This document shows, piece by piece, positions 56,739 through 62,425 of a DNA stretch of 64,000 nt. Positions within the stretch are counted from its first letter, which is position 1; every line of letters starts with the position of its first letter. Below the pieces are notes generated by a model, which saw only the letters and a list, made by a program, of their open reading frames with translations, did no database searches and was not told the origin of the DNA. Position numbers and translations under genes: made by a program. This stretch comes from Paenibacillus pabuli (GTDB taxonomy: Bacteria; Bacillota; Bacilli; Paenibacillales; Paenibacillaceae), in the NCBI RefSeq assembly GCF_039831995.1, contig NZ_JBDOIO010000003.1, positions 372,001-436,000 of the forward strand, written 5' to 3'.

Positions 56739-56862
56739 AATTCAATCGTACTTCAGTGAGCGAGAGGGCTTGGATTCAGGTATCCTCTACGCCTATGTGA
56801 CTGTTTAGAGAGGTTGCTATCATTATAGATTTGTGCACTTCGACGGAGGAGGAATCACACGA

Positions 56863-59148
56863 ATGAATTTGGTCGTCAAGTTTATGAAGGAATTCAAAGA
56901 TCGCGATAACCGGCAGCAGTTAAAAGGCTATCGAAACAAAGTGGAACTCATCAGGAAACGGAATTTGGAGGCATGGGACGATGAGCGGCTTCAAGGGGAA
57001 TCACTTCGCCTGAAAAAGGAAGCAATAAAGGGCAGACCTTTGGATGAGCTGCTTGTCGATGCCTATGCGTTAGTCTGCGAGGTAGCGAAGAGAAAGCTTG
57101 GATTACAACCTTACGATGTACAGATCATGGCAGCCATCGCTCTACATGAAAGATTTTTGATTGAGCAGCATACGGGTGAAGGAAAAACACTCTCTGCTGT
57201 TATGCCTGCTTATCTAAATGCGCTGACTGGACAAGGTGTGCATGTGCTGACGTTTAATGATTATTTGGCCAATCGAGATGCCGAGTGGATGGGTCCAATT
57301 TATCGTTTTCTCGGATTAAACGTAAACTCGGTTCAAGCGGGAATGAGCCTGGACGCGAAAAAGGAAGCCTACGGGAATGATATTACCTATGTGACGGCTA
57401 AAGAAGCGGGGTTTGATTACTTACGCGACACGATTGCACTAAATGAAGCTGATATGGTTCATCGTCCGTTCCACTACGTCATTGTCGACGAGGCGGATTC
57501 ACTCCTTCTTGACGAAGCGCGGGTGCCGCTAGTCATTAGCGGAGAGTCGGGCTCTTTCAAGAATGACGACATTCGTTTTGCAGAAGTGGCTCGGCAGCTC
57601 GAACAGGTAGAGCATTATGAATTCGATGAGTTCCAGCGGAACGTTTACTTGAATGAAGCTGGTTCTGCGAAGGCGGAGTCACTGCTCGGCTGCGGCAATT
57701 TGTACGATCGTCATAATGGTCATTTGTTAACGTCATTAAATTGTGCGCTGCATGTGGAAACGTTACTAAAAAGAGACGTCGATTACATCGTCCGAGACGG
57801 TGAAATCGAGTTGATTGACGAATATACAGGCCGCGTGGCAGAAAACAGGTATTTACCCGACGGGCTGCAAGCCGCGCTTGTAGCCAAAGAAGGGCTACAG
57901 TGGACAGAAGGCGGGAAAATTCTTGGCACAATAACCATCCAACATTTCATTAGCCTGTATCCGGGAATTTGCGGAATGACGGCTACAGCGCAAGCTTCAG
58001 CAATGGAGTTTGAACATATCTATGCGCTGCAGGTCGTGCAAATTCCGCCAAATCAACCAAACATACGGATCGACTACCCGCACCGAATTTATACTCACAA
58101 AGAAGCCAAACTACAGGCGCTTATACAAGAAATCTTGTCCGTCCATGCGACGGGACGTCCGATTCTCATTGGTACATCTAGCGTCGAGGAGTCCGATAAG
58201 CTAGCGGAAGCGCTGGCGAACGTCAACGTACATTGCCATGTTTTGAATGCGAAAAACGACGCAAAAGAAGCCGAAATCATCGCTAAAGCAGGAGAGATTG
58301 GTGCCGTAACGGTTTCTACGAATATGGCAGGACGCGGAGTAGACATTCGGCTCGGCGGCGGCAATCGTGAGCAGGCAGAAGTTGTCGCCAAGCTGGGGGG
58401 ATTATACGTGATGGGTACATATGTGAATGAAAGCGTGCGGATTGACGACCAACTGCGCGGGCGTGCCGGCCGCCAGGGCGACCCCGGAGCCTCCGTATTT
58501 TTCGTAAGCCTGGAAGACGAGCTAATGGTTCAGTTCGGCATCCATAAGATGGTTCGAGTTACGAAGCAGGATGGGGCACTTGAGGGGGCGGTGCTTTTCA
58601 GTAAAATTGAGCATATTCAGCATGTTATTATGGGTCAGAACTTTGATATCCATCAGGAACTGAACAGTTATTCAGATATGGTCGAAGACCAGAGGCGAAT
58701 TCTGTACGCGGAGCGGCTTAAAATTTTAAAAGGCGATCTGCCAATGAGCCCTTCGGAACAGAGGGTGCGACTTTTTTATATTGACGAATCCTGGGCTGAA
58801 CATCTGACATACGTTTCTTACCTTCGCGAAAGCATCCACTTGGAGAGCATTGCTAGCCGCAATCCAATCGATGAATTTCATACGCAAATTACACAGGCAT
58901 ACGAGCAAATTCCGTCTAAAATCAATAAGGAAGCGAAGAAGATGCTTCTAAGACTCGGGGGTTCGAATGAACCAACGGAGTGGGAGAAACTTGGACTGAA
59001 AAGCCCGGCTTCCACAAGGACCTATATAATCAACGACCAGTACAGCGAGAATAGGCGCAGCTCATGGACTGGAACGACTGTCTTTGCTTTTTGGGGCCGT
59101 CAAATTTTGAGATTGGCACTATGGCCGGTATATAGAATGTCAAAATAA
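56863..59148 (+). CDS. SecA-family translocase ATPase, accessory (SecA2-like)
   Basis: A 761-residue SecA paralogue: Walker A HTGEGKT (about residues 104-110), DEAD as VIVDEADSLL (about 206-215), preprotein-crosslinking region, second helicase half with TNMAGRGVDIRLGG and QLRGRAGRQGDPG. It is shorter than housekeeping SecA (about 835) and lacks the cysteine-rich SecB/lipid-binding tail, ending instead in a basic WGRQILRLALWPVYRMSK. ATG 56863 lies 11 bases after GGAGGAGG. No SecY2 or glycosyltransferase genes are adjacent, so it is an orphan of the SecA2 type. Function in export of a specific subset of proteins is inferred. Confidence 0.85.
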   Translation: MNLVVKFMKEFKDRDNRQQLKGYRNKVELIRKRNLEAWDDERLQGESLRLKKEAIKGRPLDELLVDAYALVCEVAKRKLGLQPYDVQIMAAIALHERFLIEQHTGEGKTLSAVMPAYLNALTGQGVHVLTFNDYLANRDAEWMGPIYRFLGLNVNSVQAGMSLDAKKEAYGNDITYVTAKEAGFDYLRDTIALNEADMVHRPFHYVIVDEADSLLLDEARVPLVISGESGSFKNDDIRFAEVARQLEQVEHYEFDEFQRNVYLNEAGSAKAESLLGCGNLYDRHNGHLLTSLNCALHVETLLKRDVDYIVRDGEIELIDEYTGRVAENRYLPDGLQAALVAKEGLQWTEGGKILGTITIQHFISLYPGICGMTATAQASAMEFEHIYALQVVQIPPNQPNIRIDYPHRIYTHKEAKLQALIQEILSVHATGRPILIGTSSVEESDKLAEALANVNVHCHVLNAKNDAKEAEIIAKAGEIGAVTVSTNMAGRGVDIRLGGGNREQAEVVAKLGGLYVMGTYVNESVRIDDQLRGRAGRQGDPGASVFFVSLEDELMVQFGIHKMVRVTKQDGALEGAVLFSKIEHIQHVIMGQNFDIHQELNSYSDMVEDQRRILYAERLKILKGDLPMSPSEQRVRLFYIDESWAEHLTYVSYLRESIHLESIASRNPIDEFHTQITQAYEQIPSKINKEAKKMLLRLGGSNEPTEWEKLGLKSPASTRTYIINDQYSENRRSSWTGTTVFAFWGRQILRLALWPVYRMSK

Positions 59149-59254: not shown

Positions 59255-60265
59255 TTAAACAGTGATGTTCTTCATTTCATGAATTTTTTGGAGCATTTGG
59301 ACAAGTTTCGTCTTCTCGCCATTATCCTCTGTGTGGAGATAACTCTCCACAAACCTGTAGCCAAATACAAGAAGGATCATTTCATAGACGCAATGGTCCG
59401 CAACAGGGGGTGCATCGGCATATTCAGAAAATCCTTGGTAATACGCGGGAACACACCGCTCGTAGTAATCGACCATGTAATTAACATCCGCTTCATCCGC
59501 AATCAGGCTTGCAAGATCCTCACCCAAATAGCCCCATCCGGTTGTATCCCAGTCGATCAGCGCGATTTTCCCATCGGCATAGATCAGGTTGGTCACCCAG
59601 AAGTCCCTGTGGCATAGCACGAGGGGGAGTTTTTCAATGCGTGTAAGTATTTTGTCTGAATGTTCATCGATGTCGATGAGCATTTGCTGTATGTGCTGCG
59701 GAAATTCGCAGTCCTCCGAACGGATATAATCGTAGACGACGGGCCATGACCGGTAGTGCAGATACGTATTCTTCATGAGATCCGCATGGCTCAGGTTTGT
59801 CAGGCTCTGCAGTACAGTGGGCTGTTTCGCATACAGCTTGCCCTGAAAGCGTCCTAACTCCAACGCAGCCTGTTCATACATGTCACCGGTTAAGTCTAAT
59901 CCTGTTACACCATCGATATATTCCAGCCATAACTGGAACTCCTCTTCTTCGGTATTCATCTCGGCGTAATAACATGTTGGCCAGCGCAAGGTATCAGAGA
60001 ACGATTCCCCCAAGTCAGACGCATAAAGATCATATTCCCGGCGCCATGAATCCGGATCATTGTAACGATTCCATTGCTTCTGAATTTTCAGCACGATACG
60101 GTAAGATAATTTTTCGCCTACCGCAGTTTCGGCAATCCCCGTAACCAAGTGTACATTTCCCACAGTACCGCCCTGTAACGGCATGGTTTTGTAATCCGCC
60201 GAGATGATCTCTTTCTCAAACCGCCTGCTTAAGACATCGTTCAGTGTTTCGGATTTAATATTCAT
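59255..60265 (-). CDS. APH/choline-kinase-fold phosphotransferase
   Basis: A 336-residue protein of the aminoglycoside phosphotransferase superfamily. ATP Lys is about residue 60 (RIVLKIQ), the catalytic loop is H219-x-D221-x4-N226 in LCHRDFWVTNL, and the magnesium Asp238 is in ALIDWDTTGWG. Such enzymes phosphorylate antibiotics, sugars or other small hydroxyl compounds; the substrate here is not evident. ATG 60265 overlaps the RsgA stop as ATGA, so the two are translationally coupled. This coupling to a ribosome-assembly GTPase behind an attenuator-like leader favours a role in coping with translation inhibitors, but that is inference. Confidence 0.85.
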   Translation of the reverse strand: MNIKSETLNDVLSRRFEKEIISADYKTMPLQGGTVGNVHLVTGIAETAVGEKLSYRIVLKIQKQWNRYNDPDSWRREYDLYASDLGESFSDTLRWPTCYYAEMNTEEEEFQLWLEYIDGVTGLDLTGDMYEQAALELGRFQGKLYAKQPTVLQSLTNLSHADLMKNTYLHYRSWPVVYDYIRSEDCEFPQHIQQMLIDIDEHSDKILTRIEKLPLVLCHRDFWVTNLIYADGKIALIDWDTTGWGYLGEDLASLIADEADVNYMVDYYERCVPAYYQGFSEYADAPPVADHCVYEMILLVFGYRFVESYLHTEDNGEKTKLVQMLQKIHEMKNITV

Positions 60266-61335
60266 ATCTTCCAACCCCCGTTTTTCTTCGTGTTCTTGCT
60301 CTGCATGGCGAGCGTTTTGTCCCTTGCCCTTTTGTCGATAAGGTAACTCGTTTTATCCTGGACATACTTGTTCTCATGCTGTTGGGTGAGATAATGCTCC
60401 CACCGCTCACGAGAAAACGAACCGTCGGCAATCGCGGAGAGAACGGCACAGCCTGGTTCGGTCTGATGGCGGCAATCCGTAAATCGGCATTGAGGGAACC
60501 ATTCCTCCACATCGGCAAAGCTTGCGCGTATGCCTTCATTGGCATCAAAAAGCCCAAGCTCACGCATACCCGGCGTGTCGATGACCATCGTACCGGAGGG
60601 AAGCATGAACAGCTGACGATGGGTTGTCGTATGCCGCCCCCGGCTGTCGCCCTCCCGAATCGCCTGAACCTGCATGACGTTTTGTTCCATCAACGCATTG
60701 AGCAGAGAAGATTTACCGACGCCGGACATGCCGAGAAAGACGACTGTTTTTCCAGGCATGAAATAGGAATCGAGTTCGCTCAGCCCCAGGGCTGTATGAC
60801 TGCTGATCGCGTGAACCGGCACATCTGGGATACTTTGTGTGACTTCTGAGAGTGGGAGCGTATAATCTTCGACGAGATCAGCCTTGGTCAGAATGACGAC
60901 CGGCTGGCCGCCGCTCTGCCTGGCTTGTGTCAGGTACCGCATGATGCGGGTAACGTTAAAATCCCTATTTAGAGAAGAAAGGATAAACACATAGTCAAAG
61001 TTGGTTGCGACGAGCTGTTCCAGCACGGTTTTGGTATAGCCTGTGGCATGACCGGAGTAATCCGCCCGCGAAAATTTGGAATGGCGGGGCAGTACCGTAA
61101 CGATGAGAGAGTTTCCGCTCTCGTTGTATTTCAGCAAAACAAAATCTCCGACACACGGAAAGTCCACGCGGGTTTCCGCGCCGTGATAGAACGTTCCTTT
61201 GAGAACCGCTGTTACTTCACCACGCTCGGTCATGACCGAGAAGCGCTCGCGCCGAAGCTCTGTCACCCTGCCGGGTAATAATCCGCCTTGAATTGCATCT
61301 ATTTCTGTATAGCCATAGGTTTTTAAATCAATCAT
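60262..61335 (-). CDS. rsgA: RsgA-family ribosome small-subunit biogenesis GTPase (paralogue type)
   Basis: A 357-residue circularly permuted GTPase: OB fold about 15-90, G4 TKAD (150-153), G1 GMSGVGKSS (202-210), G3 DTPG (253-256), and a zinc site Cys283, Cys288, His290, Cys296. RsgA checks late 30S assembly and is released by 30S-dependent GTP hydrolysis. The N terminus (about 20 residues longer than B. subtilis RsgA) and the divorced context (not in a prkC-rsgA-rpe cluster) suggest a second, specialised copy. ATG 61335 has AAAGGAG 13 bases upstream, a long spacing. It is followed by the overlapping phosphotransferase gene and preceded by a structured leader. Confidence 0.88.
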   Translation of the reverse strand: MIDLKTYGYTEIDAIQGGLLPGRVTELRRERFSVMTERGEVTAVLKGTFYHGAETRVDFPCVGDFVLLKYNESGNSLIVTVLPRHSKFSRADYSGHATGYTKTVLEQLVATNFDYVFILSSLNRDFNVTRIMRYLTQARQSGGQPVVILTKADLVEDYTLPLSEVTQSIPDVPVHAISSHTALGLSELDSYFMPGKTVVFLGMSGVGKSSLLNALMEQNVMQVQAIREGDSRGRHTTTHRQLFMLPSGTMVIDTPGMRELGLFDANEGIRASFADVEEWFPQCRFTDCRHQTEPGCAVLSAIADGSFSRERWEHYLTQQHENKYVQDKTSYLIDKRARDKTLAMQSKNTKKNGGWKI

Positions 61336-61374
61336 GTTTGTTTGTTAGCTCCTTTAATGTTGTTTTTTGGACGC

Positions 61375-61602
61375 AAAAATGCCACGGACAAGCAGCCTCT
61401 AAAAAAGCTGCTGTCGCGCGGCATCAGGACGCAAAAAAGATACGACCTTCATCGTATCTGCAAACAGCAATATTCACGAAAGGTTACTTTGGATGGCATA
61501 GCAAATAATACGGGAGTTTTCCCACCTTTTTTACGTATGCCTACTATTCAGTTTTAAGACAAAACCACCATATAAGTATTTGCCATTAAAAACATCTCCC
61601 TT
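61375..61602 (-). promoter_or_regulatory. Attenuator-like leader of the rsgA-APH operon
   Basis: Read on the minus strand: AAGGGAG (61602-61596), leader peptide (61586-61554), then four segments with alternating complementarity: ATACG (61538-61534), CGTAT (61512-61508), AGATACGA (61459-61452), TCGTATCT (61445-61438), the last followed by TTTTTT. A second bulged hairpin (61424-61379, ATGCCGCG...GTGGCAT) is followed by TTTTT; GGACGCAAAAA-type repeats (plus strand) mark both T-runs. GGCATA/TATGCC (61541-61536 with 61500-61495) adds another competing stem. No gene on this strand lies upstream, so the terminators must sit in the operon's own 5' leader. Ribosome-mediated attenuation is inferred. 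Confidence 0.68.
61554..61586 (-). CDS. Ten-residue leader peptide MANTYMVVLS
   Basis: ATG 61586 lies nine bases after AAGGGAG and reads MANTYMVVLS before a TAA at 61556-61554, 15 bases upstream of the first attenuator segment. The hydrophobic short peptide, strong site and position before alternating hairpins fit leader peptides of antibiotic-inducible genes. A stalled ribosome near its end would mask segment 1. Confidence 0.55.
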   Translation of the reverse strand: MANTYMVVLS

Positions 61603-61876
61603 CGTGTAAGGAACTTGCTTATCGCTAAGCTGTTTATAAAATAACCTTTTTTTTCAAAAAAATCAATGATGAAAAGAAGCAGGAAGAACGTATGATGCAT
61701 GACCTGGCTAGCATTGAATAAGGCCAAAAATCTTAAGTTCAACGATTCGGGACAGTAAGCCGCATTGGGAGATCGAGTTCAGAATGTAAATTTGAGACGT
61801 TGCGGTTTACAATAAGATAAAAATTAATTATAGTTATCAAAGAGTTGTTTTATCTACAATCAAAGGAGAGATCAAC

Positions 61877-62425
61877 ATGAATCCAAAATTACAAAAGAAA
61901 ATTAGCAATTTAGAAAATATCGAGAGATTTCCAGCAGAGGAATTATTGGAGCTTTTACCTGTCAAAAAAACCGACAATGTATTGGACCTTGGAGCAGGCA
62001 CTGGTTACATTTCACTTTCTATTGCTGAACGAGTGAACACTGTATATGCGCTGGATAATGATAAGGATGTCCTTGAATATTTGGAAACCCAAGCGAAGGA
62101 GAGAGGCATCGCGAACATTCAATCTGTTGTAGGTGACTTTAAAAAAATTCCGTTAGATAACCTTGATATAGCTATTGCTTCAATTTCTTTACACGAGGTT
62201 CAACCACTTGCAACAGCTCTGAAAGAAATCAACAGAAGTTTGAAAGACAGAGGCTTGCTCTTATGTATCGAATTAGAGAAGACAGAAACTTCAACGGGTC
62301 CAAGGGTTTCTTCGAAAGACATGGAAATTGCAATCCTAGATGCTGGCTTCTCGATCGTTAACAAAATCTACCCGTCCACCAAAATTGCCAACCAGTCTAT
62401 CTACATTATTCTGGCTCAAAAGTAA
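61877..62425 (+). CDS. Class I SAM-dependent methyltransferase
   Basis: A 182-residue Rossmann methyltransferase with motif I VLDLGAGTGYISL (about residues 35-47), motif II acidic YALDNDKD (about 57-64) and a QSVVGDFKKIP stretch. This UbiE/Methyltransf_11-type scaffold gives no substrate. AAAGGAGAG lies eight bases before ATG 61877. It is divergent from the rsgA-like operon, about 270 bases from its leader peptide. Confidence 0.85.
   Translation: MNPKLQKKISNLENIERFPAEELLELLPVKKTDNVLDLGAGTGYISLSIAERVNTVYALDNDKDVLEYLETQAKERGIANIQSVVGDFKKIPLDNLDIAIASISLHEVQPLATALKEINRSLKDRGLLLCIELEKTETSTGPRVSSKDMEIAILDAGFSIVNKIYPSTKIANQSIYIILAQK

Follow-up and report, generated by a model that had tools for sequence, protein, structure and literature searches.

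To our knowledge, leaders that sense antibiotics are mostly known gene by gene. Those of hflXr and vmlR are closest in logic to the leader presented here. As described in PMC6310831 and PMC12121999, the sources for the hflXr and toiL comparisons, the leader rli80 of hflXr (lmo0762) in Listeria combines a leader ORF with a terminator, an antiterminator and an anti-antiterminator, and its target is a ribosome-associated GTPase homologue. Compared by description, it differs from the present leader in its 14-aa peptide with an RLR motif, its induction by lincomycin and erythromycin, and the one terminator described for it. The vmlR leader of Bacillus subtilis, according to PMC9226507, carries an anti-antiterminator overlapping the uORF, an antiterminator and an intrinsic terminator; stalling on the uORF prevents the anti-antiterminator, induction is lost when the SD or the start codon of the uORF is mutated, and variant uORF peptides work. 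In contrast with the present leader, it has a three-codon uORF, an ABC-F target, and one terminator together with pause and SD-sequestering hairpins. The toiL leader of E. coli (topAI) similarly contains a uORF that senses several classes of ribosome drug, with tetracycline stalling at its start codon, but acts on translation and Rho-dependent termination (compared by description; PMC1586002 was also consulted).

The window, the whole stretch of 64,000 nucleotides of Paenibacillus pabuli that was analysed, belongs to a 6.95 Mb genome with three RsgA homologues. Its minus-strand leader (61606-61375) lies between a divergent methyltransferase gene (61877-62425, plus strand) and an rsgA-like gene (61335-60262). 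This leader is best explained as a transcription attenuator under ribosome control that drives genes protecting, repairing or clearing ribosomes and belongs to a family to which we found no name attached; it would probably turn its gene on only when protein synthesis is hindered. Judged by the genes that follow related leaders, its notable feature appears to be its spread over genes guarding the ribosome. No Rfam 15 family matches the window's leader at the gathering score, and over 18 loci the only match is a pan motif elsewhere in L058; searches of open-licence PMC papers turned up nothing on an rsgA leader, and blastn gave no match for the window's leader on plasmids. The elements of the locus are listed in Table 1.

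Table 1. Elements of the leader and the genes that follow it (window positions).
Feature	Positions	Strand	Basis and remarks
Promoter-like site TTGATT-17-TATTTT	61638..61666	-	33 nt upstream of the leader SD region; 8/12 consensus
P0 5' strand CACGAAGGG, overlapping the leader SD	61598..61606	-	complementary to 61483-61475; swap tests; compensatory changes
Leader ORF MANTYMVVLS + TAA	61554..61586	-	ORF conserved; SD AAGGGAG
Hairpin P1, GGCATA (61541-61536) with TATGCC (61500-61495), inner GGG/CCC stem	61495..61541	-	swap test, alignment
Core C1 AACCTTTCGTG, 3' strand of P0, with complementarity to the T1 loop as well	61475..61485	-	near invariant; swap tests
Core C2 TTGCTGTT, proposed antiterminator strand	61463..61470	-	complementary to 61415-61408; swap tests
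Terminator T1 (AGATACGATGAAGGTCGTATCT + T-run)	61433..61459	-	terminator calls; stem swap test
Terminator T2 (GATGCCGCGCGACAGCAGC..GGCTGCTTGTCCGTGGCATT + T-run)	61375..61425	-	terminator calls; stem swap test; hairpin + T-run listed as 61425-61378
rsgA-like GTPase (RsgA paralogue, RsgA2), 357 aa	60262..61335	-	homology searches, tree
APH-fold kinase, ATG overlapping the rsgA stop (ATGA)	59255..60265	-	PF01636 51.6 bits

The preliminary description of this DNA had read the leader as an attenuator with segments in the order 1-2-3-4. The elements that it listed are all present on the minus strand, namely the ATG..TAA frame (61586-61554), AAGGGAG, ATACG (61538), CGTAT (61512), AGATACGA (61459), TCGTATCT (61445), the T-run and a second hairpin with a T-run, and there is indeed no same-strand gene upstream; the next upstream gene, that of the methyltransferase, sits on the plus strand. 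Hairpin 1 also exists, but ATACG:CGTAT is another register that is missing from the minimum-energy fold, and the true stem is larger (GGCATA:TATGCC). The observation was right, and so was the class of interpretation: an attenuator agrees with the conserved leader ORF, the conserved terminators, the compensatory changes and the translation-stress-type targets, whereas the specific 1-2-3-4 pairing scheme is not supported (see below).

The folding energy of 61336-61620 has a z-score of -6.4, with none of 200 shuffles as good, and 61300-61900 contains three terminator-like sites against 0.5 expected, one of the three being the inner P1 hairpin. The most conserved part of the leader, which the preliminary description does not mention, is 61485-61463. 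Within this block, CCTTTCGTG is complementary to CACGAAGGG of the leader SD region (61606-61598), and TTGCTGTT is complementary to GACAGCAG in the 5' arm of T2 (61415-61408). P1 begins 15 nt past the first base of the stop codon. The start codon given in Table 1 is presumptive, since an ATG nine bases earlier (MFLMANTYMVVLS) and a TTG frame of 62 aa share the same stop in frame. Promoter-like sites were found upstream of 48 of 64 leaders, against 25-36 of 64 in five shuffled upstream sets, which lends weak support to the site in the window.

A search with the GTPase in a collection of one genome per species gave 73 loci. Of these 73 RsgA-like relatives, 68 have the core motif (AACCTTTC[GA]T or a variant near to it) upstream, in Paenibacillus, Bacillus and relatives, Clostridium and uncultured Bacillota, and a script picked a leader ORF in 63 of these loci as well as in the window. 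Five loci were dropped before the alignments and tests: L028 and L053 (no ORF), L041 (decayed), and L056 and L066 (different layout). Alignment A1, of 46 sequences, runs in the order SD, ORF, stop codon followed by a conserved AAC.GAATA, P1 and core. An alignment of homologous leaders had been named beforehand as the test that could overturn the reading, and it did not do so: the leader ORF is conserved, and 92.5% of the P0 and P1 cells are paired (shuffled mean 90.1; none of 500 shuffles attains the observed value; versions slid along the alignment give 34-54%). Moreover, 7 of the 18 P0 and P1 pairs change on both sides, a number reached in only 4 of 500 shuffles; examples are a C-G to U-A change beside the SD in Clostridium and a G-C to A-U change in L044. 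T2 with its T-run is called in all 51 leaders of the two main clades (A and B), and T1 with its T-run in 44 of the 51. Where T1 is uncalled, the T-run is gone (L010, L020, L021 and L069) or an insertion has displaced T1. By sequence, a leader ORF with an SD is conserved, and intrinsic terminators (T1 and T2) lie between the ORF and the gene.

The pairings were compared by a swap test, in which duplex energies within each leader are set against those obtained when partners are exchanged between clades (up to 73 leaders, 8-17 clades); the fractions below are those of swaps at least as good as the native pairs. The stems of T1 and T2 are each matched in 0/5000 swaps, and that of P1 in 0/2000, where the script mislocated the P1 5' segment in at least L047 and L071. 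The SD pairs with core C1 (P0) better than nearly all exchanged partners (25/2000 and 5/5000), as does core C2 with the 5' arm of T2 (1/2000 and 3/5000). The latter pairing is exclusive with T2, as expected of an antiterminator. On these comparisons the better supported regulatory pairings are a putative anti-antiterminator, SD:core, and a putative antiterminator, core:T2. C2 with itself (1/5000) fits a small local hairpin.

Core C1 and the T1 loop do not covary (1113/5000 swaps), and covariation cannot be seen here because C1 is nearly invariant. The complementarity of the T1 loop to C1 is, in each of 14 clades, above that of shuffled loops (single-clade fractions 0.01-0.24; combined 0/5000). 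Other combinations were not significant: C2 with the T1 5' arm (977/2000 and 3533/5000), the ORF with T2 (3605/5000), T1 (4508/5000) or C2 (3347/5000), T1 with T2 (4572/5000), and C1 with T2 (509/2000 and 549/5000). Two pairings outside the model are borderline, that of the P1 3' side (segment 2) with the T2 5' arm (89/2000) and that of the ORF with C1 (235/5000). A motif after T2 (TGCGTCC/ATGCCC) looks convincing by eye as a partner of the P1 5' strand, yet 310/2000 swaps are as good, in a test subject to the same mislocated P1 segments, and it was rejected; its pairing with segment 2 is not supported either (727/2000).

The preliminary description had proposed a classical attenuator, in which a ribosome stalled at the end of the peptide masks segment 1, segments 2 and 3 pair, and T1 is lost. 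In its favour, P1 starts 13-16 nt after the stop codon in all but one of 64 leaders, roughly as far as the front of a ribosome sitting on that codon would reach. The window does contain CGTAT:ATACG, and L034, L038 and L064 form 2:3 once the mask extends into P1. This scheme is nevertheless improbable: swapped 2:3 partners from other clades do at least as well in 1574/2000 and 4838/5000 cases, and when only the peptide end is masked in equilibrium folding, 2:3 stays close to zero in 15 of 17 leaders and exceeds 0.1 in L034 and L064 only.

We consider it somewhat better than an even chance that a ribosome held on the ORF instead frees the core from its pairing with the SD, disarms the terminators and lets transcription read into rsgA2-aph. 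In the unstressed state the leader SD region would pair with the core block (P0), T1 and T2 would form, and RNA polymerase would stop. If a ribosome were held on the ORF, the simplest case being one at or close to the start codon, it would cover the SD and preclude P0; as the loop of T1 and the 5' arm of T2 emerge, the freed core could then engage them, allowing transcription into rsgA2-aph. The ORF, P0, P1, T1, T2 and the core:T2 complementarity are conserved as far as comparison among leaders shows; translation of the ORF, the switching step and the disruption of T1 by the core are steps that we infer. The inducers would be translation inhibitors, probably ones that act on the small subunit.

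The change from P0 to a free core is the weakest step of this model. Equilibrium folding with ribosome masks reproduced no switch: T1 stays formed (at least 0.77) under every mask in 20 of 21 leaders, the exception being L064, where it falls to 0.07, and three further leaders have no T1 call. In 15 of 17 leaders core:T2 is already formed, with no mask, by the time the 3' arm of T2 is still to be transcribed; with the SD masked, core:T2 rises in one leader (L049) and falls in L057, L064 and L063, a decrease that slightly reduces our confidence in the mechanism. P0 is supported by the swaps (5/5000), but folding does not show that C2 is blocked by it. The switch therefore needs co-transcriptional kinetics or another partner, or the P0 reading is incomplete.

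Two further explanations of the leader were weighed. Translation attenuation could be the main output, with leader AGTTCC upstream of the SD sequestering GGAGCT, the ribosome site of rsgA, until translation of the ORF by a ribosome opens it. The minimum-energy fold of the window does pair AGUUCCUU with AAAGGAGCU, and the pairing is strong in clade A (-10.1 kcal/mol), but across 8 clades the leader start and the rsgA ribosome site do not pair clearly better than swaps (421/5000), and the conserved intrinsic terminators would be left unexplained; we regard this as quite improbable. A small-molecule riboswitch with an incidental small ORF seems very improbable. The near invariance of the core nucleotides would suit it, but the ORF is kept despite variable start and stop codons and length, P0 is built on the SD of this ORF, and the downstream genes have no obvious common metabolite, besides the lack of an Rfam match noted above.

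A compilation of 102 leaders, made partly by hand, contains 76 distinct peptides of 9-13 residues. The residue fourth from the end is Val in 74 of the 76 and Glu in the other two, while the last two residues vary freely. By eye, this Val is encoded in almost all cases by GTG, preceded by a codon with G in third place; as GGT is able to pair with the core ACC, the constraint on Val may be on the RNA. Start codons vary (ATG, GTG, TTG), stop codons are TAA in 56 and TAG in 8 of 64 leaders, and the length is variable, yet the frame stays open. No R-x-R arrest motif of the macrolide RLR type was seen by eye among the 76 distinct peptides. Apart from the Val the peptide is degenerate, which argues against an arrest specific to the nascent chain.

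Leader models were used to collect further places. R1 matched 8 of 398 genomes of the phylum, and R2 matched 15 of 398 genomes of the class and 30 of 391 genomes of another class, a few of which had no leader on inspection; the R2 matches L167 and L191 are without one. When R3, a sequence-only model whose alignment took in the leaders L185, L187 and L197, was run on the same 391 genomes, 47 places scored E <= 5e-5. The E-values are rough, the clades few and the genomes partly chosen for having matches.

The GTPase downstream of the leader is distinct from the housekeeping enzyme. Each of the 15 genomes searched carries an RsgA homologue at 26-38% identity. In 13 of them there is in addition a copy with 42-100% identity along most of its length; G006 keeps no more than a remnant next to its leader, and G1011 lacks the 42-100% copy. 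In a tree of 40 rows, 13 housekeeping copies and 27 paralogues are split at 100/100 support (of the paralogue rows 23 are labelled as having the leader and 4 as lacking it, L188 and L225 being one gene). Judged by this tree, the downstream GTPase is a deep RsgA paralogue, RsgA2, and not an orthologue of the housekeeping copy. In the 15 genomes, which were picked for carrying some leader, the R2 leader was found at 14 of 14 RsgA2 places (at least 42% identity, a line drawn after the fact; two leaders weak, L226 with E 0.001 and L224 with E 0.0097; 10 of the 14 outside the alignment of R2) and at none of 17 other RsgA homologues (a set that includes three copies of 40-41%), 31 of 35 RsgA places having been tested. 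A second RsgA paralogue in genome G000, L075 (G000:C3:1643791-1644729), is 41% identical and has no leader. The RsgA-like gene of L202 (revcomp 1500-1720) follows a minimal layout, with a leader ORF MKKVYELVIVG and one terminator-like hairpin.

The window's own family comprises 70 leader places in 67 of 245 genomes. They precede rsgA2 and aph in 41 cases, rsgA2 only in 7, aph with rsgA2 missing or a remnant in 19, and neither in 3, so that an APH homologue is downstream in 60 of the 70. The 19 aph-only places mean that the kinase is often kept where the GTPase is lost. Places where rsgA2 is lost or a remnant while leader and APH are kept include L078, L084, L090, L101, L102, L130, L142 and L150. 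The kinase motifs HRDFWVTN and IDWD look intact by eye. That the protein might be an amicoumacin kinase (YerI/AmiN) is a candidate idea; a PDB search with the APH returned only choline kinases, at E about 0.003 (limit 0.01).

Beyond RsgA2, the leaders precede a variety of genes. Targets include GNAT acetyltransferases (L108, L111, L172, L186), class I methyltransferases (L107, L187), a kinase (L169), an APH (L166) and ABC transporter genes (L206, L193). The target of L204 is a 680-aa tetracycline-protection-like protein (NF012153, 622.7 bits, below the cut-off of 775), and that of L203 is rtcB followed by prfH (TIGR03073, 425 bits on L197; TIGR03072, 243 bits; both above cut-off). Leader ORFs are present in L193 (before the ABC gene), L198 (before a GNAT gene; the same place as L287) and L202 (before the RsgA-like gene). 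Between two and four leaders stand before different genes in each of the genomes G1268, G1175, G1064 and G1284.

Twenty R3 stretches were newly fetched, 18 of the 47 places and two at 1e-4 and 2e-4. Ribosome-linked or resistance-type genes follow in 13 of these: rsgA2 (3), rtcB-prfH (3; L290 and L291 scanned, L292 by likeness), MutS2-like (4; L294-L296 scanned, L300 assigned by likeness, and a single genus supplying three of the four), GNAT (1) and ABC (2). The remaining 7 precede a gene of the CD3324 family or like it (2), an AAA ATPase (1) or no clear gene (4; L282, L284, L285, L297).

Several of these places deserve separate mention. CD3324-family (L184, scanned) or similar small proteins come right after the leader in L184, L188, L289 and L299, in L188 followed by rsgA2. 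The MutS2-like genes (L294, L295, L296, L300) encode about 650 aa, and their leader ORFs end in V-I-x-N; the L294-L296 proteins have no Smr domain at E <= 1e-8. MutS2 is said to be a splitter of collided ribosomes. The rtcB-prfH (16S rRNA repair) operons L203, L290, L291 and L292 have a related short-ORF leader upstream; in PMC9223846, RtcB2-PrfH is described as acting on 16S rRNA cut in the decoding centre.

The leaders before rtcB-prfH, MutS2-like and ABC genes could be unrelated attenuators caught through the generic features of an SD, a short ORF and a terminator, which we think unlikely but carry as a serious alternative. R3 has no base pairs and was itself built with one rtcB leader (L197), weak R3 matches are abundant (125 of 391 genomes at E <= 0.1), and the cores of the divergent leaders L184-L192 and L197 are altered. 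On the other side, the MutS2-like and ABC leaders are absent from every model, and besides the 13 of 20 targets counted above, 17 of the 20 new stretches contain an ORF whose fourth-last residue is Val (L286 and L287 are without it, L284 gave no call).

If these leaders are related, as we favour, they may form a translation-stress regulon of the Bacillota that has no trans-acting regulator. Each copy of the one leader family would sense a ribosome held on the ORF that it carries, and together the copies would switch on genes for small-subunit protection and repair (RsgA2, rtcB-prfH, MutS2-like, a Tet-type protection protein, drug-modifying enzymes and exporters). RsgA2 would be induced by drugs and would protect or rescue the 30S subunit, as the counterpart of HflXr on the small subunit. 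This proposal is tentative, and we put it at somewhat below even. A leader common to unrelated ribosome-protection genes would be a sequence handle for new factors of resistance and ribosome rescue, with RsgA2 and the APH-fold kinase encoded beside it as candidates. It also allows a test of whether a uORF whose peptide is degenerate can respond to inhibition of the small subunit.

The leader family may in addition shed light on the tet(M) leader, with which it has much anatomy in common. The tet(M), tet(W) and tet(O) leaders likewise contain an SD, a 7-codon ORF (MRQGILK), a hairpin and a terminator (L247 900-1200, L245 860-1200 and L246 850-1200, respectively). In tet(M) this ORF sits upstream of the annotated leader peptide and pairs with a downstream AAGAATACC core over about 15 bp (-18.2 kcal/mol); in contrast with the present leader, the partner of the core is the body of the ORF and not the SD. 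TTTTTATGCCC follows the terminator in the tet leaders and in the Clostridium- and Lysinibacillus-type leaders, where the window has TTTTTGCGTCC. R2 with filters off scores 7.2 bits for tet(M) and 5.4 bits for tet(W), neither significant, and R2 and R3 at default settings give no match at the tet leaders; since neither model recognises them, they are not filed with this family.

Adjoining the rsgA2-aph operon of the window on the plus strand is a gene for a SecA-like ATPase of 771 aa (56833-59148), possibly an accessory SecA.
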